Part shown: in pieces, positions 44,796 to 63,876 of the stretch | Layout of the letters: each line of letters begins with the position of its first letter | How positions within the stretch are numbered: position 1 is the first letter of the stretch | IMG/VR virus record: IMGVR_UViG_3300014501_000001 | Span: 1 to 64,000 of that record | From: a virus | Strand: one strand, 5' to 3' | DNA length: 64,000 nucleotides | Made by a program: the position numbers and the translations under genes | The notes under the pieces: generated by a model | Seen by the model: only the letters and a program-made list of their open reading frames with translations | Told to the model about the DNA's origin: nothing | Databases searched by the model: none

Positions 44796-47700
44796 TTGGC
44801 ATCTCCGGCCGCCATTATCGCCGCAGCGAAAGCCGCGCGCAGTGCGCCTTCCGCAGGCCAGGGCGGCATGTCACCCGCTGTTGCCGCCATGAACGATAGC
44901 TGGGGCGGCATTTACGGGAACTTCCTTCCCCGGCCTGCCCAGGACTTCACGCAGGGCGCGTTCGGGCCGCTGACACCCCTCCCGCCGATGCCGGTCGATC
45001 AGCCGCCGCCGGGCTTTGACCGCCCGATGCCGCGACGCTGGCAACCGCCAATAGGCTGGAATTTGCCGCAGAGCCCTCCGGGTAGCGAGGGGCTGAAGCT
45101 CTGCGGCTTCGGCGAGTTGCGCACCCTGAGCCGGCTCTACAGTGTCGCCCGCGCGTGCATCCAGCTCTTGAAGTCCGAGATCCGCGCCCTGGAATGGGAC
45201 ATCGTGCCCACGAAGGACGCGGCGAAGGCCATGCGCGGCGACCACAAGGCCATGCGGGACTTCGGCGAGCGCCGGTCCGAGTGCATCCGGTTCTTCAAGA
45301 ACCCGGACCCGGAGTACGGGTCGTGGTCCTCGTGGCTGGACACGCTGCTGGAGGAAATCTACGCGATAGATGCGCTTAGCGTATTTTTGCGCCCTTCGCG
45401 TGTCCGGGGACGCGGGCTAATGGGATCGGACCTGTCAGCGCTTGAGCTGATAACAGGTGATTCGATTCGCCCGATGGTGGATCTTCATGGTTCACGCCCT
45501 ACGCCCCCATCTGTCGCTTTTCAGCAATTTTTGTATGGGGTGCCCCGCAGCGACCTCATGACCATCATGATGGGCGCCGACCTGACCGACGACCTCAAGG
45601 CCACCCAGGTCCATGAGTACCGGGGGGATCAGCTTCTGTACCTGCCTTACACAAGGCAGACGGACAGCCCCTATGGCTTCCCGCCGGCGGAGCAGGCGCT
45701 AGTCCCGGTGATGTCGGGGCTGTCCAAGCAGGGTTACCAGCTTGACTTCTTTCGTGAGGGTTCGGTACCTGCTGTATATATTTCGCCTGGGGATGCCGCT
45801 ATGACCGCATCTCAGGTGCGGGAGCTTCAGGATGCATTGAACGTTATTGCCGGAGATGTCGGGTTTAAGCATAAGGTCATAGTGCTGCCCCCCGGCAGTA
45901 AGCCGTACCCGCAGAAGGACCCGCAGCTAGCCGACCAGTTCGACATGGTCGTGTCTACCGAGGTCTGCATGGCCTATCAGGTGCAACCCACCGAACTTGG
46001 GCTAATGCCGCAAGTAGCCACCGTGCAAAGTCCGTCAAGTATGAACCAGGCAGCCAAGGCGGACGCCGCGCGCCACCAGCGCAAGTCCCTCGTCCCGATG
46101 CTCCAGTTCCTCAAGCAGGGCCTGCTGGACAAGGTCATCCAGGTTGCCTGCGGGCAGACGGACATGCAGTTCCTGTTCGAGGGCCTGGAAGAGGACGAGG
46201 ACGAGGTCTCCCTGACGGGCCTGCTGGGAACGCAGATCGGCACCGGCCTGCGGTCGGTGGACGAGGGCAGGGGCGTCCTGGGCCTGGACCCGTGGGGCCT
46301 GCCGGTCACCCAGGACCCGCTGTGGGCATCCGCGAACGGCGTCATGCTGCTGGGGTCGGTGGACCCGGCGACGGGCCAGCCGGGCGGCCAGCTGGCGGGG
46401 CTGCCGTCCGTGACGCAGCAGATGCAGGGCGCGCAGGGCGGTGCCGCAGGCTCGCCGGGCGCGAACGAGGGCCAGGTGAACGGCAAGCCCGCGCTCGCGC
46501 AGGGCCACCTGCCGGGCACCACGCATGTCCCCCCGGCTCAGCCGCAGCGGGACCCGACACCCTCGCATTCGGCGGCGATAGCGGGAGCGGCGGAAGCAGC
46601 GGCAGCGGTCTCGGGCTCGTCCTCGAAAGCGGCAACGGCAGGGCAGGACGGGCTGCACCGCTACGAGCCGTTCGTCCCCGGCGACCAGTCCGCGTGCGTG
46701 AAGTGCAGCCTGCCGCGCAGCTATGCCGCCCACGCAGTGACGGCGATCGGGTCGCGGATGATGCTGAAGGCCATCGCGGCACCCGTTGCGCCAAGGCCGC
46801 CGGATCATGTCCTCGCGGAGATCCTGACCGCCCCGGACGCTGCGTCGCTGAGCAAGGCCGCAGCAGCCGCGCTGATGCCTGCCCTGCCGGAAACCCCGGC
46901 CGTGTCGTCCAAGGCCGCGCTGAGCGAGCTGGATGCGCTGGGCAGGCACGTCCGCAAGGGCCGCGACCCCGCAACCTGGCAGCCGGTCCACATCCCCGGT
47001 CACGTCATGGCCATGATCTGCGAGGACGTGACGAAGGGCATAGCCATTGCGGAAGTGCTGACGGCGGCGGCTGACCAGATCCCAAAAGCCTCAGCCGCCA
47101 AGAGCGGCCCTAGCAGCGGTCAGCGGCGGCAGGCGTGGCTTGCCTGGGAGCATGACCTCCAGCTGGCGGCGAAGTACGAGAAGCAGATCGGGGCCGCTTT
47201 CGCGTCGGTGATGGCCGAGGCGGGCAGGCTGTTCGCCGCGTTCCTCGCCGGGACCCTCGCGGTCACTGCGGCGGTTCTGGCGTCGATGATCGCGGACCTG
47301 ATCCGGCAGCGGCTCGCGCTGATCCTGGCTCCCTTGCACGCGGAGGGCCGGGAACTGGGCGCGGCGGCGGCCATGCAGGCAGTAGGGGCGTCCGCACGGC
47401 AGCGGCAGGGGATAGCGGCGGCGCAGCAGGCGGACACGTCCCAGATCGCCCAGCAGGCCGCGGTAAGGCAGATGGCCGGCACCGGGCTCGCCGGGTTCAC
47501 CGTCGCGCTCATGAAGCTGCTCCTCGGCGGCGCGGTCACCGTTGGGGCGCTGCTGGCGCTGCTGGATGCGTTCCTTAACGCTGAGAACCGCGCCGGGCTG
47601 ATCGCCCTGACGGAGATCGAGAAGGCCATCGCGGACGGGGCCTTCGGGGTCTACACCGAGCTAGGCGTGAGTTACGTCCGCTGGCACACCCGTAACGACT

Positions 47701-49337
47701 CAAGGGTCTGCGCCCGCTGCATGGCCAACCAGGACGCCGGCCCGGTTCCGCTGGGGAGCCTGTTCCCCGGCGGGGTCGCCCAGCCGTGCCAGCATCCAGG
47801 ATGTCGTTGCTGGCTGGCTCCGAGCGATCCGCCGAAGCAGGGTGTTGCGCCTCCCGCGCCGGGGACTGCGAAGGCGGCCGGGGCTCCGCTGCTCTACCAA
47901 GGACCCGTCCATGGGGGCCCATTGAGCTACCCGCCAACCATGGATGGCGAGGCGGGACTCGAACCCGCAACCTACGGAACCCCGGCCGCAGTGCACCTTA
48001 CCAAGGCCGACAAACCCTGGAAGCACCCGGACACGTCTCTCCCTGTCGCTGAGCAGGTCTACGCGCAACTGCTGGAGGACTACCCCGCCTCGGCGCTGAC
48101 CTGGGTAAAGGACGCTACCTGGACCGGCCCGCAAGAGGTCCCGCTCAGCGCGATCGAGTACACCCCGGACAAGTGGCAGGCCGGCCACGAGGACGCCAAG
48201 GTCGATCGCTTCAAGGCCAAGATCGAGCGCCGGCAGGCGGCAGGCAAGCCGGTCAAGCCGGCCGTCCTCATCGACCGGCCGGACACGAAGCCGGGAACGC
48301 ACCTGATCGTGATCGACGGCCACCACCGCACGATGGCCTTCCATGAACTGAATCGTCCCGTCGTCGCCTACGTCGGCAAGGTCACCACAGCAGGAGCGAG
48401 TGCGGCAGAGGAAACTCACGCCTCGCAGTTCAGCGACCGGAAGCCGGGCGCGGGCGACGACGGGCGCACCATGAAGAACTTCACGGCGGCGAACCTCGGC
48501 GACGGCTCGGTGCACGGCCTCGCGCCGTATGACCTGCGGGGCCAGGACGACGGCTGCGGCTGCTGCGCGGAGTGCAGCGGCCCGTCGTGCGGCTGCTGCC
48601 CGGACTGCGATGCGGCCAAGGCGGCACGCGGCTACAGCCTGAACCCGCGCTCGGGCATGATCTCCCTGGACCTGCCGGAAGGGCTGATCGAGCCCCTGCC
48701 AGGCGGGGTCACGGATCACCATGTGACCGTGGTTTACCTCGGGCCTGACGTGGATGACGACGCATTCAGCGCCGCGTGCGGCATGGCACGCGAGGTCGCG
48801 GCGGCCACGCAGCCGCTGTCCGGGACCATCGGCGGCATCGGCTCGTTCCCTGCCGGTGATGACGGGGTTCCGGTCTGGGCCGGCGTGAACCTGCCCGGTG
48901 CCGAGACACTGCACGAGGCGCTGGCTGAACTTCAGTCACCGGACGCGAAGGCCCGCGAGCACGGCTACAAGCCGCACTGCACCATCGCGTACCTCGAAGA
49001 GGGCGACCCGCTGCCGGATCCGCTGCCCCACATGCCGGTGACATTCACTCACCTGTCGGTACATCGCGGCGAGGACGTGAAGCGGTTCTCGTTCGGTGGC
49101 GGCTCAGCGGAGAAGTCAGGCAAGACCAGCGCCGAGATCCTCCGCGAGTACTGGACCCATGAAGGGCACCCCGGCCCCACGCAGTACGCCCTGGAAGAGA
49201 AGATCCGCTGGGGCGAGAAAGACGACTGGTACCGCTGCGTGGACGAGCTAACGCCCTACATCGGCGAGGGTGCGCGTGGCTATTGCACGCTCAGGCACCA
49301 CGAGGTCCTGGGTGCCTGGCCCGGACATCCGGTCTGA
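44796..49337 (+). CDS. portal-MuF-ParB-like-2H phosphoesterase fusion, 1513 aa
   Basis: TTG start after AGGGGAGCAGGA. Residues 100-560 are a phage portal (LSRLYSVARACIQLLKSEIR, GVPRSDLMTIM, STEVCMAYQVQPTELGLM). A long Ala-rich helical part leads to a MuF head domain (about 954-1010) with HTRNDSRVCARC and CQHPGCRCWL. A ParB/Srx-like domain follows (about 1115-1190; VIDGHHRTMAFHELN). Next is a Cys-rich stretch and a 2H phosphoesterase (HVTVVYL near 1308, HCTIAYL near 1394) and a C-terminal helical domain. The portal forms the DNA gate; MuF parts often travel with DNA into the cell. Codons 1032-1068 read antisense to tRNA fragments. Confidence 0.85.
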   Translation: MASPAAIIAAAKAARSAPSAGQGGMSPAVAAMNDSWGGIYGNFLPRPAQDFTQGAFGPLTPLPPMPVDQPPPGFDRPMPRRWQPPIGWNLPQSPPGSEGLKLCGFGELRTLSRLYSVARACIQLLKSEIRALEWDIVPTKDAAKAMRGDHKAMRDFGERRSECIRFFKNPDPEYGSWSSWLDTLLEEIYAIDALSVFLRPSRVRGRGLMGSDLSALELITGDSIRPMVDLHGSRPTPPSVAFQQFLYGVPRSDLMTIMMGADLTDDLKATQVHEYRGDQLLYLPYTRQTDSPYGFPPAEQALVPVMSGLSKQGYQLDFFREGSVPAVYISPGDAAMTASQVRELQDALNVIAGDVGFKHKVIVLPPGSKPYPQKDPQLADQFDMVVSTEVCMAYQVQPTELGLMPQVATVQSPSSMNQAAKADAARHQRKSLVPMLQFLKQGLLDKVIQVACGQTDMQFLFEGLEEDEDEVSLTGLLGTQIGTGLRSVDEGRGVLGLDPWGLPVTQDPLWASANGVMLLGSVDPATGQPGGQLAGLPSVTQQMQGAQGGAAGSPGANEGQVNGKPALAQGHLPGTTHVPPAQPQRDPTPSHSAAIAGAAEAAAAVSGSSSKAATAGQDGLHRYEPFVPGDQSACVKCSLPRSYAAHAVTAIGSRMMLKAIAAPVAPRPPDHVLAEILTAPDAASLSKAAAAALMPALPETPAVSSKAALSELDALGRHVRKGRDPATWQPVHIPGHVMAMICEDVTKGIAIAEVLTAAADQIPKASAAKSGPSSGQRRQAWLAWEHDLQLAAKYEKQIGAAFASVMAEAGRLFAAFLAGTLAVTAAVLASMIADLIRQRLALILAPLHAEGRELGAAAAMQAVGASARQRQGIAAAQQADTSQIAQQAAVRQMAGTGLAGFTVALMKLLLGGAVTVGALLALLDAFLNAENRAGLIALTEIEKAIADGAFGVYTELGVSYVRWHTRNDSRVCARCMANQDAGPVPLGSLFPGGVAQPCQHPGCRCWLAPSDPPKQGVAPPAPGTAKAAGAPLLYQGPVHGGPLSYPPTMDGEAGLEPATYGTPAAVHLTKADKPWKHPDTSLPVAEQVYAQLLEDYPASALTWVKDATWTGPQEVPLSAIEYTPDKWQAGHEDAKVDRFKAKIERRQAAGKPVKPAVLIDRPDTKPGTHLIVIDGHHRTMAFHELNRPVVAYVGKVTTAGASAAEETHASQFSDRKPGAGDDGRTMKNFTAANLGDGSVHGLAPYDLRGQDDGCGCCAECSGPSCGCCPDCDAAKAARGYSLNPRSGMISLDLPEGLIEPLPGGVTDHHVTVVYLGPDVDDDAFSAACGMAREVAAATQPLSGTIGGIGSFPAGDDGVPVWAGVNLPGAETLHEALAELQSPDAKAREHGYKPHCTIAYLEEGDPLPDPLPHMPVTFTHLSVHRGEDVKRFSFGGGSAEKSGKTSAEILREYWTHEGHPGPTQYALEEKIRWGEKDDWYRCVDELTPYIGEGARGYCTLRHHEVLGAWPGHPV
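47890..48000 (-). other. antisense tRNA gene fragments inside the portal fusion
   Basis: On the minus strand GCGGGTTCGAGTCCCGC then CTCGCC (about 47976-47944) is a perfect T-arm plus acceptor 3' strand. Nine bases later GCGGGTAGCTCAATGG and then TTGGTAGAGCA (47936-47890) are tRNA 5' and D-arm motifs. No complete cloverleaf: the first lacks its 5' acceptor and the second has a D-loop insertion and no 3' half. Confidence 0.65.
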
Positions 49338-53694: not shown

Positions 53695-53711
53695 ATCCAC
53701 GGAGGTGCATG
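53695..53711 (+). repeat. 17-bp leader repeat, copy 2
   Basis: Identical to 52033-52049; ends in the ATG at 53709. It suggests duplicated start regions or selection for a fixed leader. Confidence 0.75.
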
Positions 53712-56399
53712 GCAGCCACACTGACCGCCGGCAACGACCTTGCTTTCGCGAGTTTTCCCATCGAAAAGTGGGAGGACGGCCCGGACGGCTCGGTCTACGT
53801 CTACGGGAAGGCATCGACGCCCGAGATCGACACGGACGATCAGGTGGTCTCGCCCGATTTCTCGGGCCCGGCTCTCAAGCAGTGGATGGAAGCGCCCGCG
53901 CTCCGGGTGAACCATCAGGCCCGCCGCGACCCGGCCGGATCGGGCATTCACGTCGAGATTGACCGGGATGGCGACGGCGCCCACTGGGTGAAGTCGATCG
54001 TGGCCGAGAAGGAAGCGGTCCGGCTGGTCAAGGGCGGCCACCTGCGCGCCTACTCCATCGGCATCGCCCGGCCCGTCATCGAGCGCGACATGACCGGGAA
54101 GGCGCGCGGCGGCATCATCACGGGCGGCGTCATCGCCGAGGTCAGCCTGGTCGATTCGCCCGCGAACAGGTCATGTTTCCTAGAACTGGTCAAAGCGGAC
54201 AAGAACGGCGACGCGCAGTGGTCCGGCAAGGTGTTCGGCGCTGACGACTTCCTCGCCAAGGACGCCGCCCCGGACCTGATCAAGGGCACCGTCTCCTTCT
54301 CCCCTGATGACCTCGCCAAGCTTCTCCAGCACCGCAAGGTCGCCGAGGAGCGCGAAGCGGAAGTCACCAAGGCGGCGGCGGGAGCCGACGAGGCCGGCGG
54401 CGACAACGCTGCGGCTGACCAGGAGGACGAGTCCGGCAACGCCGACATGGAGAACGCCGACGACACGGACGCGCCGAAGGCAGCGGAGCCGGACGCGGCA
54501 GAGGTTGCCGTGGCCGATGCGGTGAAGGCGGTAGAGGTCGCCGTCTACAAGCGGGACGTCTCCGCAGCGGAGCGCAAGGAACTCGCCGGCAAGGGCCACG
54601 CGCTCAAGGACGGTTCCTACCCGATCGCCAACGCCGAGGATCTGGGCAACGCGGCGATCCTGGCCCGCTCCGGTCACGGTGACGTGGCAGCCGCGAAGGC
54701 GCTGATCGCCAAGCGCGCGAGTGAACTGGGCGTGGCCAACCCGCTCGACGACGACGCGGAGAAGGCCGCCACGGCCGATGACGCGCCCGCCGTTCCTGTC
54801 GCTGACAAGGCCGCGAAGCCGAAGATGGCGTGCCCGTCGTGCGGCAAGAAGTCCGGGGCGAAGAACCCGTTCTGCTTCAAGTGCGGCAAGAAGATGACCC
54901 CGGACACCGATGACAAGGCCGACAAGGCCGCATCCCCGACGCCCGCCGATGGCGTGAAGGACGCGCCGCCGGCCGAGCCCGTCACCCCGCACCGGGAGCC
55001 TGACGGGGTGGCGATGGAACAGCTCGAGGACGACGCGCACCTGGAGGGCGGCAACCCGGACGAGGGCGGCGAGCGCGCGGCCGAGGCCGCCGTAGCGCCT
55101 CCCGCAGCCGAGGACGCCCAGGTGGGCAAGACGGCCGGCTCCGAGGCCGCGTCGTGGCGGATCAGGGAGGCCGGCGCCTCGTGGGGCGAGGGGATCCTGC
55201 ATGATTTCCTGTGCCCCGCGTTCTCCCCGGACGCGACCGCGAAGTCCTACCCCGGCCAGACCCTCGCCGCCGTCGCGGACCCGGCGGAATGGCAGTCGAA
55301 GGCACTGTCGGCCGCGATCGACGCCCCGATCCCGGAGGCGGGCAAGGCGCAGCGCCGCTGGCAGGATGCCCTGACCATCGCCGGCACGGACGCCGAGACG
55401 GTCACGGGCCTGCGCTGGGAGGCGCACAAGGCGTTCGCCGACGCGAACCCCGGCCCCTCCGCGTACCCGACTCCGGGCGAGTTGCGCCCGCAGTCGTTCC
55501 GGCGCCCGATCCTCACTGACGGGCAGTCCCCGAGCCCGGCGGCGTCCGGCGCCAGCCCGTCGCACATCACGGCCGATCACATCTCGGCTACGGACTTCAC
55601 CCGCGGCCCGCTCACCGGAGGCCAGGAAGCCTCCAGCGAGCCAGAGGGAGACAACGGCTCCCAGGGCGTCCCGTCAGTGCCGGGGAAGCCGCAGCGGACC
55701 TTCTACCGCAACACGAGCCGCGACGGCGCCAGGGCCGCGATGGCGTCCATGCACGACCACATCGCGGGAACGTTCCCCGACCTGTGCCCCATGCACGGGC
55801 CCGGGATGGGCGGCCAGCCGCCGGCGGGCGCGCGTCCCGTCCCGGTGCCGGGAACCCGGAAGGCAGAGGACGAGCCGGAGGTTGTCAAGGCAGCGGCGCC
55901 GGCAGGCAAGCCGGCCAAGGTGGCGTGCCCGTGCGGCAAGAAGGCCCGTCCCGGCAAGTTCTGCCCCGGCTGCGGCGAGAAGATGCCGATGAAGGGCGGC
56001 ATGGCTGCCAAGGCAGCGGACCCGCTGCCCGCCGTCGCCGCGCTCCCGGTCCCGTCGCTGGACGCCGCGGCGCTCCAGGCAGCCGTCGAGAAGGCCATCG
56101 CCCCTCTCGCCGCCAGGCTTGAGCAGCAGGGCGATCTCATCGACCAGATGGCCTCTGCCCCTGACCCCCGCTATGCCCCGTTCAAGGCCGTGGCTGCCGG
56201 CGGGGTGCTCCCGAAGGCCCTCCAGCCGGCCCCGGCGGTACCTGAGCGGAGCGCCGTGGAGAAGGCAGCCAGCAACGTGCAGGAAACCCTCCTGCGCGAC
56301 CTCCAGTACCAGGCCCGCAACGACCCGGACCCCGGCAGGCGGGAAGTCGCCTGGCAGGAGCTGACCAGGCTGCTGAACGTCGCGGGCGGCACGCGGTAG
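53709..56399 (+). CDS. prohead protease fused to a long scaffold-like region with two zinc ribbons, 896 aa
   Basis: Residues 10-160 match HK97-type prohead proteases: VYVYGKASTPEIDTDDQVV, ALRVNHQARRDPAG with His, then LRAYSIGIA and ITGGVIAEVSLVDSPAN with Ser. The rest is low-complexity Ala/Asp/Lys, as in scaffolds, with helices. It holds CPSCGKKSGAKNPFCFKCGKK (residues about 375-395) and CPCGKKARPGKFCPGCGEK near 740. It would shape and then trim the capsid shell. Directly before the capsid gene. Confidence 0.85.
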   Translation: MAATLTAGNDLAFASFPIEKWEDGPDGSVYVYGKASTPEIDTDDQVVSPDFSGPALKQWMEAPALRVNHQARRDPAGSGIHVEIDRDGDGAHWVKSIVAEKEAVRLVKGGHLRAYSIGIARPVIERDMTGKARGGIITGGVIAEVSLVDSPANRSCFLELVKADKNGDAQWSGKVFGADDFLAKDAAPDLIKGTVSFSPDDLAKLLQHRKVAEEREAEVTKAAAGADEAGGDNAAADQEDESGNADMENADDTDAPKAAEPDAAEVAVADAVKAVEVAVYKRDVSAAERKELAGKGHALKDGSYPIANAEDLGNAAILARSGHGDVAAAKALIAKRASELGVANPLDDDAEKAATADDAPAVPVADKAAKPKMACPSCGKKSGAKNPFCFKCGKKMTPDTDDKADKAASPTPADGVKDAPPAEPVTPHREPDGVAMEQLEDDAHLEGGNPDEGGERAAEAAVAPPAAEDAQVGKTAGSEAASWRIREAGASWGEGILHDFLCPAFSPDATAKSYPGQTLAAVADPAEWQSKALSAAIDAPIPEAGKAQRRWQDALTIAGTDAETVTGLRWEAHKAFADANPGPSAYPTPGELRPQSFRRPILTDGQSPSPAASGASPSHITADHISATDFTRGPLTGGQEASSEPEGDNGSQGVPSVPGKPQRTFYRNTSRDGARAAMASMHDHIAGTFPDLCPMHGPGMGGQPPAGARPVPVPGTRKAEDEPEVVKAAAPAGKPAKVACPCGKKARPGKFCPGCGEKMPMKGGMAAKAADPLPAVAALPVPSLDAAALQAAVEKAIAPLAARLEQQGDLIDQMASAPDPRYAPFKAVAAGGVLPKALQPAPAVPERSAVEKAASNVQETLLRDLQYQARNDPDPGRREVAWQELTRLLNVAGGTR

Positions 56400-57073: not shown

Positions 57074-57772
57074 ATGGCGGACATTCTCGAAGCAACGATC
57101 GCCCCGGCTGACCAGCTCAGCCCCACGGGCGCAGAGGTCGCCGGCAACGTCGCGCAGTTCTCCCGCACGGGGGAAATGCTGAAGGCCCGGCTCCCGAACC
57201 TCGTCAAGGGAGCAGGCTACGCCGGGACCGGCAACGCCCCCCTCACCGACGAGATCCAGATCATGACCAAGGCATCCCAGGCCGCTATCGACCTGCGGCA
57301 GGCAACCTGGGACGGCATCACCGACAAGCCGGCCGTGGTCAAGGGCATGAACCAGGGGTTCCTGAACCAGTTCGGGTACCTGAAGACGGCCCTGACGGCC
57401 CCGTCGCTGATGGACACCCTCGCGGGTGTCTTCGGGCAGATGCCCGGCGGCAGCGAGGCGTTCAAGAATTTCACGGCCGGCAATCTCGGGGTGGGGTCGG
57501 TGTACGGTTTGGTGCCGTTTGACCTCATGCGACCGAGTCGTCTGATCTACCCGGTATATACCGTTTTCCGCAACAAATTCCCACGGCCCCAGGGCCAGGG
57601 CACGAGCGCGCAGGAACGGGTCATCACCGGCATCTCTGGCAGCCAGACCGGCGGCCAGGGTGTCCTCGACGTGTCCATCACCGAGCTGGTTCAGAGCGGC
57701 GGTACGTTCTCGAACTGGCCCCTCAACCTGCCGCCTTCGGGCTCGCAGACTGAGGTCTTCCTCAATGTGCCT
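57074..57772 (+). CDS. major capsid protein, exon 1 (233 codons)
   Basis: Starts at an ATG after AAGGAGTGC. The protein has SQAAIDLRQATWDGITD near 80 and NFTAGNLGVGSVYGLVPFDL near 135, with alternating strands, as in HK97-fold capsid proteins. The unspliced frame runs into a stop at 57782, 10 bases past the predicted splice site. Joined to exons 2 and 3 it reads NVP, AASNNRYRFFGISEQ, then LAQFAGQG, FEDIAGLANL without a gap. About 610 residues in total. Position after the protease supports the call; the exact 5' splice site (after CCT) is inferred from frame and a GCCU/GGGC P1 pairing. Confidence 0.8.
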
Positions 57773-59102
57773 TGCATCCTGTAGGGCCGCCGCGCCGCGA
57801 GGCGCACGCGATAACCGCGAGAATTGCTGGAAAGCCCGTACCACATGCACATGCCACAACGTGGGGCGAAAGCCCGAGCGTGATGGCCTGAAAAATGTGC
57901 ATTAGGGGTAATCAGCAGCCGAGCCCGCCTGGACCGCGACACGCGGCACCGACGGGATGGTTCAGAGACTATGCACGCGGGTTCTGGTAATCTTTAACGA
58001 TGGAGATTAATAACGATGACTGGCAGATAATGGCCGGTCAGGAGCGGGAAGAGTTCATTCGGCGCTACGTGGCTGGCGAGGCCCTGACATCCCTCGCCAG
58101 GGAGTATCACCACGGGCCTGCCACGCTGAGGGCAATCCTCGTCAGCGTGGGGGTGCCAGTCCGGACAAGGCCCGGATACGCCAAGGGCAGGAAGTGGTCA
58201 GAAGCGCAGCGTGAAGCTCACAGGCGCACAACTAGCACCCCTGAGCACAGGCAGAAGATGCGCGCGATCATGCTGAAACGCCTCCCGGTCATGCGCGGAG
58301 CGGCGACGAACTCTCCGATCGAGCGCCGGATGCAAGATGCGCTCATGGCGGTCGGCATCGGCTTCACAACGCAGTCTGTCCTGCTGGACCGCTACCTGGT
58401 GGACATCGAGATCCACCAGGCACCCATCGTGATTGAGGCTGACGGCGCGCAGCACACACTGCGCATCCAGAAGGCCAAGGACGCCGAGCGCGACACGGCT
58501 CTCACTGCCGCCGGGTACCGGGTTTTCCGGTTCACGGGCAGCGAGATCAATGCCGACGCCGTGCTGTGTGTCCGGCGTGTTATCGACGCTTGCTTCCTGG
58601 TTCCCGACCAGGAGCCCATCTATGAAATCCGCACGGCTTTCACTGGCGAACTCCACCCGCTCTGGAAGGGCGGCAAGCGGGAGTTCACCTGCGAGATCTG
58701 CGGGGTCGTGTTCATGGCTCAGCCTGCGCACCGCAAGGGGCCGCACATCTACTGCAGCATGCAGTGCAATGGTGCAGCCAAGCGCGGCAAGACGGCGAGT
58801 GCTGAGACCCGTGCCAAGATCAGCGCCGCGAATAGGGGCAAGGAGCGCAAGCCCCCGCCACCGTTCACGGCCGAGCATCGCGCCAAGATCAGCGCAGGGC
58901 TTAAGGGCAGGCCAAAGACTGCGGAGCACGCCGCCAAGGTTGGTGCAGCGCAGGCTGGCAGGCCAAAGTCCGCCGAGACTCGGGCAAAGATCAGCGAAAC
59001 GCTCAAGCGTCGAAACGCAAACCAGAACAAGATAGAGTCCGCTCTGCATGGAGACATGCAGAGGCCGGCAGAAATGACCGGCCCCGCCACCCTGTTCTGA
59101 GG
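57773..59102 (+). ncRNA. group I intron 1 in the major capsid gene
   Basis: Core elements are in order: P AATTGCTGGAAAGCCC (57822-57837), Q AATCAGCAGCCGAGCC (57910-57925), R GGTTCAGAGACTATGCACG (57959-57977) and S AAGATAGAGTCC (59029-59040). GCUG in P pairs with CAGC in Q (P4), GACU in R pairs with AGUC in S (P7). Two perfect hairpins follow (59042-59063 and 59063-59083) as P9 parts, then a terminal G before exon 2. A 366-codon endonuclease fills the loop between R and S. The intron would splice itself from the message. Confidence 0.85.
58000..59100 (+). CDS. intron-encoded EDxHD/Vsr-like homing endonuclease with NUMOD3 repeats, 366 aa
   Basis: An N-terminal helical region is followed by a Vsr/DUF559-type nuclease (about 104-195): SPIERRMQDALMAVG, LLDRYLVDIEI, IVIEADGAQH and KDAERDTALTAAGYRVFRF, with the acidic, His and Asp residues of that fold. 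Next is a zinc finger (CEICGVVF, YCSMQC) and three NUMOD3-like repeats (SAETRAKISAANRGK type). Homing enzymes of this kind cut intron-less alleles so that the intron is copied in. Its last codons overlap the intron core (S and P9), leaving 2 bases before exon 2. Confidence 0.85.
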   Translation: MEINNDDWQIMAGQEREEFIRRYVAGEALTSLAREYHHGPATLRAILVSVGVPVRTRPGYAKGRKWSEAQREAHRRTTSTPEHRQKMRAIMLKRLPVMRGAATNSPIERRMQDALMAVGIGFTTQSVLLDRYLVDIEIHQAPIVIEADGAQHTLRIQKAKDAERDTALTAAGYRVFRFTGSEINADAVLCVRRVIDACFLVPDQEPIYEIRTAFTGELHPLWKGGKREFTCEICGVVFMAQPAHRKGPHIYCSMQCNGAAKRGKTASAETRAKISAANRGKERKPPPPFTAEHRAKISAGLKGRPKTAEHAAKVGAAQAGRPKSAETRAKISETLKRRNANQNKIESALHGDMQRPAEMTGPATLF

Positions 59103-59180
59103 GCGGCGAGTAACAACAGGTACCGTTTCTTCGGCATCAGCGAGCAGCTTTCCTGGCTCGCGCAGTTCGCAGGACAGGGT
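59103..59180 (+). CDS. major capsid protein, exon 2 (26 codons)
   Basis: The frame reads AASNNRYRFFGISEQ then LSWLAQFAGQG. It fits between exon 1 and exon 3, and the AQFAGQG motif followed by FED is a pattern of capsid proteins of large actinophages. The frame runs from just after the endonuclease stop and meets a stop at 59205 inside intron 2. It is flanked by G (intron end) and T (exon end before intron 2), as group I splicing requires. Confidence 0.75.
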
Positions 59181-59455
59181 CAACTTAGAGGCCCCCTCGC
59201 AGGGTGACCTGCGAGTTCACTCGGCACCGTAACGGTGAACCCCGCCAAGCCAAGGGGAATACCGTGGAAACCTCGCACTACAGGGTTCCGTAGAGAGCAA
59301 GCGTGCCGCGCCTGTGTCATGGGACCTGCCCCGAGTGCATCAGGGGCAGCGGACCGCAGGCGAAGTTGTGCTCCGGGCTCGCGCGATGGAAAAGCGCGAG
59401 AGGCGTCCAGAAATGAGGCGCCCGGCCGTCCCCAGTGGCGGCAGGTAACAGTTCG
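59181..59455 (+). ncRNA. short self-splicing intron 2 in the major capsid gene, class unresolved
   Basis: About 275 bases, no ORF. The upstream exon ends in AGGGU and GCCC lies a few bases inside (P1-like pairing with U.G). CTCGCAG/CTGCGAG (59196-59215 area) is a perfect hairpin, AATACCGTGGAAACC (59258-59272) resembles a P box, and CTCGCGC/GCGCGAG gives another 7-bp stem near the 3' end. R and S elements are not clear. The borders are set by the frame: GQG before and FEDIAGL after. Confidence 0.6.
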
Positions 59456-60511
59456 TTCGAGGACATTGCCGGCCTGGCCAACCTGATCATGCTTCAGGAG
59501 GCCATGCTCGGAGAGGAATATCAGTTCATAGCGGGCACTTCCGCTCCGCTGGCCGTTCCCGCAGCACCGACCTGCACTGTCCGCACCGCCGGCTCCAATG
59601 AGACGGCGCTCAACACGAACATCACCGCGGTCAAGGTGGCCGCGACCAACTACTTCGGCTCGACCGCCGTCTCGGCGGCCTCGTCCACGTTCGCCGTGGC
59701 GTCCGGCCAGGTCGTGGATGTCACGATCGCCCCGGTCGCGGGCACGATGACCTACTCGATCTACGCCTTCACGTCCGGTTCCAGCTACTACCTGCTGGCA
59801 TCGGGCGTCGGCGGCCAGAAGTACACCCTGCAGGGCTTCTCGTCCCTGCCGACCGCCGTCGTCCCCCCGGCTGCCGACACCGGCACCGGGAAGAACACCC
59901 GGATGGAAGGCGTCATCCCGACGCTCACCGGGGCGTCGGCCGCTGCGGGGGTCTACCCCAGCGGCTGGCAGGGCGGCTACGTCAACCAGTCCGTGGGAAC
60001 CCACCTGTCCTACAACGCCATCTACACGGCGCTGGACAGCCTGTGGGAGTCCAACTCCAACTCACCGGGCGCATTCAAGGCGGACCCGCAGGAGATCGTC
60101 GGCGACGGCGGCGACATCATGCGCCTGTCCAACGACGTGATCTCGGCGGGGACGGCGACGAACTACCGCCTGTTCCTGGAGCAGCAGGAAGTCGGGGGAA
60201 TGCGCGTCGGCGGCGCCGTCAGCGAGTTCCAGAACCCGATCACCCGGTCCATCCTCAAGCTGGTCGTCCACCCCTGGTTCACGCAGGGCACGGCGGCCTT
60301 CATGACCTACCAGCCGCCGATGACCTACTCCCAGATCAGCAATGCCTGGGAAGCCCGAATGGTGCAAGATTACGCCAGTATTGCCTGGCCTGTCATAGAT
60401 GCGACCTTTAGGTTCTCAATCTTCTGGTATGGGGCCTTGATCGCGAATGCGCCATTCTTCTCCGGTTTGCTCCAGGGGCTCCAGATTAGTGACGTTACGC
60501 CCTACTCCTGA
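59456..60511 (+). CDS. major capsid protein, exon 3 (351 codons)
   Basis: Begins FEDIAGLANLIMLQEAMLGEE. A fibronectin or Ig-like insertion rich in Thr/Ala/Val follows (CTVRTAGSNETALNTN...YSIYAF), then the main capsid fold resumes (GTHLSYNAIYTALDSLWE, PITRSILKLVVHPWF). An ORF caller would start it at a GTG at 59435, inside the intron. Ends 60 bases before a strong hairpin. Confidence 0.8.
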   Translation, partial: FEDIAGLANLIMLQEAMLGEEYQFIAGTSAPLAVPAAPTCTVRTAGSNETALNTNITAVKVAATNYFGSTAVSAASSTFAVASGQVVDVTIAPVAGTMTYSIYAFTSGSSYYLLASGVGGQKYTLQGFSSLPTAVVPPAADTGTGKNTRMEGVIPTLTGASAAAGVYPSGWQGGYVNQSVGTHLSYNAIYTALDSLWESNSNSPGAFKADPQEIVGDGGDIMRLSNDVISAGTATNYRLFLEQQEVGGMRVGGAVSEFQNPITRSILKLVVHPWFTQGTAAFMTYQPPMTYSQISNAWEARMVQDYASIAWPVIDATFRFSIFWYGALIANAPFFSGLLQGLQISDVTPYS

Positions 60512-61556: not shown

Positions 61557-62696
61557 ATTCGCATACTCGCCCACAGTAACGCGCCATGGGAGAAATCGGG
61601 CTACGGTACGCAAATCGCCCTGCTTGCCCAGCGGCTGCCGGAACTCGGCCACGAGGTCGTGCTGTCCGCGTTCCACGGGCTCGGCGGATCGCCGCTGGCG
61701 TGGAACGGGATCACGGTCCTGCCCGGCGCGTTCCCCGGTGACCCGTACGGCGCCGGGATCCTGCCGCAGCACCGGGCACGGCACGGCGCGGACCTGATCA
61801 TCACCCTGATGGACGTGTGGGTGCTGGACCCGGCACCGCTGAAAGGCCAGCCCCTCGCCTGCTGGATGCCATCCGACTCCGAGCCGCTCTCGTCAGTTGA
61901 CAGGACGTTCCTGGACGCCTCCGGGGCCATCCCGATCGCGATGTCACGGTCAGGGGAGGCACGGCTCAAGGATGCGGGCTACTCGCCGCTCTACGTGCCG
62001 CACGGCATAGATGTCCAGTTGTTCTCGCCGTCGCCTATCCGGGAGGAGACCAGGGAGATCCTGGAGGCCACCGGGAAGTTCACGATCGGCATCAACGCGA
62101 ACAACAAGGACTCCTTCCGCAAGGGCATGTACGAGCAGATGGCCGCGTTCGCGAGGCTGCACGCGGCGCACCCGGACACGCTGCTGCTGATCCACGGCCT
62201 GGTCCACGAGGTCGGCTCGGTGGACCTGGCGCAGGTGACCCGCAACCTGGGGATTCAGGAGGCGGTGAAGTTCTGCGGGCAGTACGAGTACCTGACCGGG
62301 ATGATCACCAGCCAGCAGGTCGCGAACTGGTACGGGGCACTCGACCTGTACTCGCAGGCGAGCTTTGGCGAGGGCTTCGGGATCACGGCGCTGGAAGCGC
62401 AAGCGTGCGGCGTGCCTGTGGTCACAACCGACGCGGGGGCGATGGCGGAGATGTGCGGCGGCGGCTGGAAGGTCGCCGGGGAGAAGTTCTGGAACCCGGT
62501 GCACAACGCCTGCTGGACCCGCCCGTCGATCGCCGGCATCCACCGGGCGTATGAGCAGGCGTACCAGCGGGGCAAGGCGTACGAGGCCAAGAAGGCTAAG
62601 TGCGTCCCGTTCGCCGCGCAGTACGACGCTGACCGGGTGCTGAAAGAGCACTGGGCTCCCGCGCTCGCCGAGCTTGAGCGGAGGATCACGGCGTGA
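61557..62696 (+). CDS. GT4-family glycosyltransferase, 379 aa
   Basis: The N-terminus reads IRILAHSNAPWEKSGYGTQ, the usual first strand and Gly loop, and starts at ATT (61557) after ACAAGGGG; the GTG at 61659 would cut off this core strand. Residues 125-340 hold GINANNKDSFRKGMY and the donor motif EGFGITALEAQACGVPVV (about 272-290) of GT-B enzymes. It would move a sugar from a nucleotide donor, here probably to virion, DNA or cell-surface acceptor. Confidence 0.8.
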   Translation: MRILAHSNAPWEKSGYGTQIALLAQRLPELGHEVVLSAFHGLGGSPLAWNGITVLPGAFPGDPYGAGILPQHRARHGADLIITLMDVWVLDPAPLKGQPLACWMPSDSEPLSSVDRTFLDASGAIPIAMSRSGEARLKDAGYSPLYVPHGIDVQLFSPSPIREETREILEATGKFTIGINANNKDSFRKGMYEQMAAFARLHAAHPDTLLLIHGLVHEVGSVDLAQVTRNLGIQEAVKFCGQYEYLTGMITSQQVANWYGALDLYSQASFGEGFGITALEAQACGVPVVTTDAGAMAEMCGGGWKVAGEKFWNPVHNACWTRPSIAGIHRAYEQAYQRGKAYEAKKAKCVPFAAQYDADRVLKEHWAPALAELERRITA

Positions 62697-62992
62697 GTGA
62701 GCGCGAACCCGAGGTCCACCTGCTCAAGGAGGACAGCGCCAAGCCGGGATTGCGGCACCTGCCCGAGGAACACGCGCCCGTTACCACGGTCGCCGCTGAT
62801 CACCCTGTCGCCGTCCGGGAGCCGGGACGCTGCCAGGCATGCCATGCGTTCGCCCTGCTTGAGCGGCACTGGCCGGGCGGGATCCTGCTGCCGGGCCGCC
62901 ACGTTGAGATCTGCGCTGCGTGCCGGGGTCTGGGTGACGAGGAGATCATGCGGAGGCTGCCGGACTGGAGACGGGACGGGGCGAGCACATGA
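62693..62992 (+). CDS. zinc-finger protein, 99 aa
   Basis: GTG start overlapping the GT4 stop. CQACHAF near residue 47 and CAACRGLG near 73 form a zinc site. A charged N-terminus precedes them. Coupled between two sugar genes but its role is unclear. Confidence 0.55.
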   Translation: MSEREPEVHLLKEDSAKPGLRHLPEEHAPVTTVAADHPVAVREPGRCQACHAFALLERHWPGGILLPGRHVEICAACRGLGDEEIMRRLPDWRRDGAST

Positions 62993-63876
62993 GGGTTCTC
63001 GTAACTGGGGGCGGGGGCTTCATCGGCCGCCACGCCTGTGACGCGCTGACGGCGGCCGGCCATTCGCCGCTGGTGCTCGACCGGCGGCGGGACCGCAACT
63101 GCGGGCATGACGTGATCCTCGGCGATGTCCGGGACGCGACGGCGGTCACGGAGGCGGTCGCGCACTGCGAGGGCGTCATCCACCTCGCCGGGGTGCTCGG
63201 GACGGCGGAGACGATCAGCAACCCGCGGCCGGCGGCGGAGGTCAACATCCTCGGCGGCCTGAACGTGGCCGAGGCATGCGCGCAGTACGGGGTGCCGCTG
63301 GTGAACATCGCGGTGGGGAACTGGTTCGAGTACAGCACCTACTCGGTCACCAAGAGCACCGTGGAGAGGTTCTGCGGGATGTACCGGCGGTACCGGGGCC
63401 TGCCCGTCGCGTCGGTGCGGGCCTTCAACGCCTACGGGCCGGGCCAGTCCGTCGCGGCGCCTTACGGCACGTCGAGGGTGCGGAAGATCATCCCGTCGTT
63501 CATCATGCGGGCACTGCACGGCGAGGCCATCGAGGTCTACGGCGACGGCTCCCAGGTGATGGACATGGTGTACGTCACCGATGTCGCCGCCGCGCTCGTC
63601 ACCGCACTGGAGGGCCTCGCGGCCGGGTGCGTGCCGGATGAGCCACTGGAGGCGGGCACCGGGCGGGCGACGACCGTGGCGCAGATCGCGGAGATGACCC
63701 GCGCCGAGGTGGAACGCCAGACCGGGGTCGCGGGCAAGGTGGGCTTCCTGCCGATGCGGCCAGGCGAGACCCCCGGCAGCGTCGTCCTCGCCAGCGCGGG
63801 CCTGCCCGGCTGCGTCCCGCTCGAGGACGGGCTCGCCCGGACGGTCACGCATTACCGGGAGGCGGCCGGGTGCTGA
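62989..63876 (+). CDS. NAD-dependent epimerase/dehydratase (extended SDR), 295 aa
   Basis: Rossmann motif VLVTGGGGFIGRH at residues 3-15. The active-site pair is in YSTYSVTKST (Y-x3-K, near 118-122). AFNAYGPGQ, EVYGDGSQVMDMVYVTDVA and a closing LEDGLARTV helix follow. Such enzymes change nucleotide sugars, for example 4-epimerisation. It probably supplies the donor for the GT4 or GT32-like enzyme. Confidence 0.85.
   Translation: MRVLVTGGGGFIGRHACDALTAAGHSPLVLDRRRDRNCGHDVILGDVRDATAVTEAVAHCEGVIHLAGVLGTAETISNPRPAAEVNILGGLNVAEACAQYGVPLVNIAVGNWFEYSTYSVTKSTVERFCGMYRRYRGLPVASVRAFNAYGPGQSVAAPYGTSRVRKIIPSFIMRALHGEAIEVYGDGSQVMDMVYVTDVAAALVTALEGLAAGCVPDEPLEAGTGRATTVAQIAEMTRAEVERQTGVAGKVGFLPMRPGETPGSVVLASAGLPGCVPLEDGLARTVTHYREAAGC

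Follow-up and report, generated by a model that had tools for sequence, protein, structure and literature searches.

The closest described counterparts of the gene treated here lie in the cluster J mycobacteriophages LittleE and BAKA/Optimus. Splicing of the BAKA and LittleE introns was shown in infected cells by reverse transcription polymerase chain reaction, and N-terminal sequencing of the LittleE capsid protein across the junction also confirms it (PMC3706429). Several interruptions within one gene have likewise been described. In the Zeta crAss-like phages the capsid gene is in five fragments, and group I intron domains occupy three of the four gaps (PMC7886860). For the Herelleviridae, a further report describes three introns in Twort orf142, multi-intron polymerase, terminase and reductase genes in the Bastillevirinae, a small exon flanked by two introns in phiNIT1, and documented exon skipping in Twort and SIOphi (PMC11878797). 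Here we analyze the first 64 kb (G+C 68%), hereafter the window, of IMGVR_UViG_3300014501_000001, a 113-kb record of a tailed phage from an uncultured-virus collection. On the strength of sequence comparison, we hold it to be highly probable that two self-splicing group I introns interrupt a head gene of this phage, most likely the major capsid gene. Two introns flanking a micro-exon in a capsid-like gene had been proposed in a sequence-only reading of the same DNA, and the proposal is supported by intron-free homologues and by covariance models.

How does this locus compare with the known systems? LittleE and BAKA/Optimus resemble it in that a group I intron interrupts a structural gene, the phage measures some 110 kb and comes from a high-GC Gram-positive host, and a U precedes the 5′ splice site while a G closes the intron. 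The second intron of the window (intron 2) aligns with the intron in the BAKA minor tail gene over 81 nucleotides (nt) at 81.5% identity, the two share an end consisting of GTAACA, a few nt and G, and R2, a covariance model for the class of intron 2 described below, scores the BAKA intron at 42 bits. The LittleE major capsid gene, in turn, holds an intron 92% identical to that of BAKA. On the other hand, LittleE and BAKA have a single intron per gene where the window has two, the LittleE endonuclease gene is antisense and of a different kind, and the capsid proteins of LittleE and the window have no detectable relation. The Zeta crAss-like phages also have a capsid gene broken by several group I introns, but they are other phages with other hosts, the portion of the report at hand describes no micro-exons, and the gene family studied here reaches nine introns (PMC7886860). 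Similarly, as far as the accessible portion of the report goes, the Herelleviridae combine multiple group I introns per phage gene with a small exon and exon skipping, but their introns lie chiefly in DNA metabolism genes and number at most three per gene (PMC11878797). The sequence-only reading had called the arrangement unusual, which is fair for phage genes generally, although published capsid, multi-intron and small-exon cases mean that it is not unique. The kind is already known; the intron density and the micro-exons of the gene family are extreme.

Results

Where are the borders of the split gene? We placed them with a spliced alignment constrained to the group I pattern, in which U ends the 5′ exon and G ends the intron; the exons and introns, with the elements inside the introns, and the portal and protease/scaffold-like genes named below are on the plus strand. 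The probable major capsid gene opens with exon 1 (57074..57772; 233 codons, 699 nt), which ends in AATGTGCCU, and homologues run unbroken over the corresponding LNVP-YRFFG. Exon 1 is followed by intron 1, a group I intron of ribozyme class X (57773..59120; 1348 nt), which begins with TGCATCC after the exonic U, ends in ACAACAGG, and meets an in-frame stop four codons past its 5′ splice site; its borders are set by homology and by the fit of P1 and P10. Exon 2 is a micro-exon of 60 nt and 20 codons (59121..59180; YRFFGISEQLSWLAQFAGQG). Intron 2, a gene-free group I intron of ribozyme class Y (59181..59455; 275 nt), again follows a U and extends from CAACTTAG to ACAGTTCG, and exon 3 (59456..60511; 1056 nt, 351 codons plus stop) includes an immunoglobulin-like insertion domain. 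The exons would join as AATGTGCCT^TACCGT (1/2) and CAGGGT^TTCGAG (2/3), and the spliced product is 604 residues long with zero internal stops. The limits of exons 1 and 3 are exactly those of the sequence-only reading. That reading had also joined three frames into one protein, correctly, but of about 610 residues, since its 26-codon middle piece (59103-59180) put the 3′ splice site 18 nt early.

Comparison with homologues establishes these borders. Nineteen homologous proteins, encoded on other viral contigs, have LNVP-Y(K/R)FFG and FAGQG-FEDIS contiguous, with small variations, and AASNNR (59103-59120) occurs in none of the aligned homologues. Because the homologues lack those six codons, we assign them to the 3′ end of intron 1. 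Thus, of the two junctions in the sequence-only reading, FAGQG/FED is contiguous in the homologues, whereas NVP/AASNNRYRFF takes in six intronic codons; likewise, of AASNNRYRFFGISEQ, which that reading had expected capsid homologues to contain at this position, the 19 homologues have Y(R/K)FFG and not AASNNR, so that the expectation holds by half. The homologues in viral contigs are full-length and unbroken, with 50-66% identity (60-66% for the best). A search of cellular genomes for homologues of the capsid-like gene gave none, and the host therefore cannot be inferred from this gene.

A close relative, L008, carries the same gene with 93% identity of the spliced coding DNA. Neither its spliced frame nor that of the window contains an internal stop. 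In L008, exons 2 and 3 are fused and intron 2 is absent, exon 2 is 95% identical, and an intron with a different endonuclease, bearing an HNH-like motif, sits about 10 nt upstream of the intron 1 site of the window. This comparison establishes that close relatives differ in intron content. Given the unbroken homologues, the absence of intron 2 from L008, and independent covariance models that find both cores, we conclude that the split gene is not a product of chance.

Might exon 2 often be skipped, yielding two capsid forms, with and without its 20 residues? Its 60 nt are in frame, and skipping between adjacent group I introns is documented in Twort and SIOphi (PMC11878797). We consider it very unlikely here: the residues of exon 2 rank among the most conserved of the protein family and are kept by every aligned homologue. 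Moreover, the micro-exons of relatives, at 16, 19, 28, 29 and 37 nt, would shift the frame if skipped. Functional exon skipping as a conserved trait of the family is ruled out, since these micro-exons are often not multiples of three.

What identifies the two insertions as group I introns? We built two covariance models, R1 and R2, each from six introns, all of them from other contigs and with the window introns excluded. R1 finds the catalytic core of intron 1 from P3 to P3′ (57812..57993) with 168.5 bits and an expectation value (E) of 1e-39, the runner-up in the window having E 0.93; the P-, Q- and R-like elements are AATTGCTGG, AATCAGCAGCC and TTCAGAGACTA, and an S-like element read from the sequence, AAGATAGAGTCC (59029..59040), supplies the 3′ strand of P7 within the endonuclease frame. 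R2, together with the structure alignment, places the core of intron 2 from P3 to P7 at 59218..59377 (59.2 bits, E 2e-14; runner-up in the window E 0.71). In the intron 2 class, seven full-length introns share P2, P3, P4-P5, P6, P7, P8 and P9 plus extensions, with P7 crossing P3. Across these seven introns the P2-P9 structure has 93% of its cells paired and 47 pairs changed on both sides, which none of 500 shuffles matches, and sliding the same structure by one to three columns lowers the paired cells to about 40%. Both window introns follow the group I end rule, the U at the end of the 5′ exon pairing with a guide G and the last nt being G. Rfam model RF00028 scores relatives of the intron 1 class at 63.9 bits (L012) and 49.9 bits (L030, intron L030b; gathering threshold 50). 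Searched with R1 and R2, the rest of the window and of the 113-kb record yielded no additional intron of either class.

The guide pairing at the splice sites, like the group I structure, is established by comparison across the family. In intron 1 the internal guide sequence is gtaGGGC (57781..57787; nt 9-15 of the intron), in which GGGC forms P1 with exon GCCU, with a U.G pair at the splice site, and gta forms P10 with UAC of exon 2. Similarly, the guide of intron 2, gagGCCC (59188..59194), pairs through GCCC with exon GGGU in P1 and through gag with UUC of exon 3 in P10. Over 56 introns of the gene family, P1 and P10 together average 7.1 pairs, compared with 3.8 (standard deviation 0.2) when exons are exchanged, and none of 1000 exchanges reached the observed value. 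Because the splice sites were chosen without using the pairing, this is independent support for them. In 54 of the 56 introns GTAAC occurs no more than 22 nt from the 3′ end, against a background of 0.9%; for a subset of these introns the motif had also served as a search bonus.

Is the split gene a capsid gene? It comes after a portal protein fusion (44796..49337; 1513 residues; Pfam Phage_portal 1e-12 and 2_5_RNA_ligase2 5e-12; PHROG portal 3e-56) and directly after a protease/scaffold-like gene (53709..56399) that belongs to PHROG 21715, as does the gene preceding the homologue in Thermoanaerobacterium phage THSA-485A. That homologue is found in the same order, downstream of terminase and portal. 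In tailed phages the major capsid gene, whose product has the HK97 fold, comes after portal and maturation protease, and the split gene occupies this position. The spliced protein itself matches no Pfam family and falls in PHROG 13692, whose function is not annotated. For the homologue L003, a first AlphaFold model from 18 sequences was useless, with a predicted local distance difference test score (pLDDT) of 43; a second, from 55 sequences, has a mean pLDDT of 60 and a well-predicted beta domain at residues 280-390. Its top fold matches in the PDB are mostly phage capsids (Pa223, SPO1, SU10) at E 0.03-0.9, none significant. The capsid assignment of the sequence-only reading is thus well served by gene order and weakly by fold, and on both together we think it likely that the gene encodes the major capsid protein.

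Several observations weigh against the conclusion that two self-splicing introns interrupt a capsid gene. The structural model is of low confidence (pLDDT 60), and its capsid matches in the PDB are no better than E 0.03; the nearest PDB match of the intron 1 endonuclease, the endonuclease-like protein 3hrl, is weak; P7 of intron 1 pairs by eye with one A.G mismatch, within the overlap of core and endonuclease frame; the Rfam group I model matches neither window intron at gathering or permissive thresholds; and for the present virus both splicing and protein are predicted from DNA. We attribute the Rfam miss to the large gene insertion in the P8 region of intron 1 and to the divergent class of intron 2. 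The mismatch and the reliance on DNA would also suit a decayed gene with dead, non-splicing introns, a pseudogene or a source of truncated products only. To this we give scarcely any credence: frame and conserved residues are intact in all three exons, L008 and the window share 93% of their coding DNA with both spliced frames free of stops, the guides still fit both exon ends, the surrounding head genes are open, and a DNA search of the 113-kb record, which a diverged copy would escape, found no second copy of the gene. We found nothing to suggest that the insertions are inteins or group II introns, or that they arose through faulty assembly, and these readings can be dismissed for practical purposes: in-frame stops exclude inteins, the group I structure has P3 and P7 crossing, and the same intron classes recur across numerous sites and contigs, the latter independent of one another.

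We therefore retain two self-splicing group I introns as the preferred reading, for which we propose the following mechanism. The transcript would fold, and each intron would excise itself through two transesterifications that an external guanosine initiates, so that in the cell the three exons (699 nt, 60 nt and, with the stop, 1056 nt) would be ligated into a message for the 604-residue protein. Alleles that lack intron 1 would be cut at its site by the Vsr-like endonuclease, and repair would copy intron 1 in. Intron 2, being gene-free, would rely on the partner intron, on another endonuclease, or on inheritance.

How would intron 1 move? It encodes a putative homing endonuclease of 366 residues (58000..59100) that sits in the P8 region and overlaps the 3′ core. 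The protein combines a Vsr-like DUF559/MTES_1575 domain (IVIEADGAQH; Pfam DUF559 3e-14) with NUMOD3 (1e-7), both above the Pfam cut-offs, and has a PHROG homing endonuclease match at 1e-8. Vsr-like (EDxHD) homing endonucleases include I-Bth0305I, which is encoded within a group I intron of a phage recA gene. The present protein is of the same DUF559 Vsr-like nuclease fold family and also lies within a phage group I intron, but it is a putative nuclease, with only the weak PDB sequence match given above. Intron 1 is probably mobile through this endonuclease. A scan of viral contigs found no close relatives of it. In a tree of 19 endonucleases of the same family from introns of this gene, the site labels need 9 changes, the fewest possible, compared with a mean of 14.0 when shuffled, and none of 200 shuffles did as well. 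For example, the endonuclease of L025, which occupies the same site as intron 1 in a different ribozyme class, clusters with the site-232 set and not with its class-mates. The simplest reading of these sequences is that endonucleases track the DNA site while ribozymes are exchangeable, which is clustering and not single origin. An earlier grouping of the site-232 endonucleases as one clade, from a first tree of ten sequences, was dropped, as sites 140 and 229 fall inside it with 19, although overall the clustering by site persists.

How dense are introns across the gene family? The counts that follow are lower bounds, two of the scans having been restricted to the best 80 loci. Among 109 distinct contigs (two of them representing the THSA-485A homologue), 75 have an uninterrupted gene and at least 29 have introns in the capsid-like gene. 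The 56 introns with settled borders occupy at least 32 sites, at residues about 134-161, 229-271 and 550-604, plus one at 69. As the sequence-only reading had suggested from the two window introns, insertion favors conserved stretches: the 32 sites lie in low-entropy columns, with a mean of 0.57 bits against 1.15 bits gene-wide (spacing-preserving shift, p = 0.008). Motif and model score served to sort the introns into ribozyme classes X, Y and Z; for a few later introns, such as L164c, the class is provisional.

Single genes carry five introns in L118, six in L152 and nine group I cores in L164, eight of the latter with settled splice sites. Once those eight introns are removed, L164 reads as a clean capsid protein, from PVYTVFRNK through to its stop codon; a second assembly, L190, contains the same sequence. 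L164 mirrors the layout of the window, with introns at 233 and 252 and a 59-nt exon between them. Internal exons are as short as 16 nt in L152, 19 nt in L164, 21 nt in L026, 27 nt in L137, 28 nt in L030 and 29 nt in L028. In a partial literature search we found no phage gene with nine introns, nor any case of phage group I introns separated by exons of 16-29 nt, and we make no claim to a first report.

Three further loci deserve mention. In L164, at 1880-2010 (identical in L190), a 22-nt stretch (VAPSRLI) stands between GLVPFDL and the core of the second intron; VAPSRLI is close to a protein segment absent from the exons and comes after a short insertion that contains a stop. This second intron fits no splice solution. 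In L096 (1-160) a likely 16-nt exon, ACCCCGTGTACACCGT, separates a class X intron, truncated at the contig end, from an endonuclease-bearing class Z intron. Finally, an intron of L152 (6044-6318) is placed two codons ahead of the stop, so that the final exon consists of part of a Tyr codon, Ser and the stop.

The surrounding genes offer additional observations. The portal fusion includes a Mu F-like segment and has a 2′-5′ RNA ligase-like phosphoesterase domain at its C-terminal end. A portal segment (48474-48536; KNFTAANLGDGSVHGLAPYDL) is identical at 16 of 21 residues to capsid KNFTAGNLGVGSVYGLVPFDL (57464-57526), just past the helical N-terminal region; one possible reason is a common processing site for the head protease. 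Downstream of the capsid gene are a group 1 glycosyltransferase (61659-62696) and an NAD-dependent epimerase (62989-63876), which may serve sugar decoration of the virion or the host surface.

Discussion

What might so many introns mean for the phage? We propose, as possible rather than probable, that the gene family is a hotspot for group I introns, with at least 32 sites, up to nine introns per gene, and exons down to 16 nt that serve both as P10 partner of one intron and as P1 partner of the next; that ribozyme classes and site-specific endonucleases are swapped among its sites; that its density goes beyond the literature compared; and that the splicing of several introns in a highly expressed late message could set the timing or dosage of capsid supply.

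Micro-exons escape gene callers, and capsid genes are consequently reported as truncated, so that capsid-based searches and trees lose environmental phages. The family is also an uncommon natural experiment, with dozens of sites, intron-free alleles and three ribozyme classes at shared sites. It makes two old questions testable: how small an exon between two group I introns can be, and how ribozymes and endonucleases are paired in evolution.

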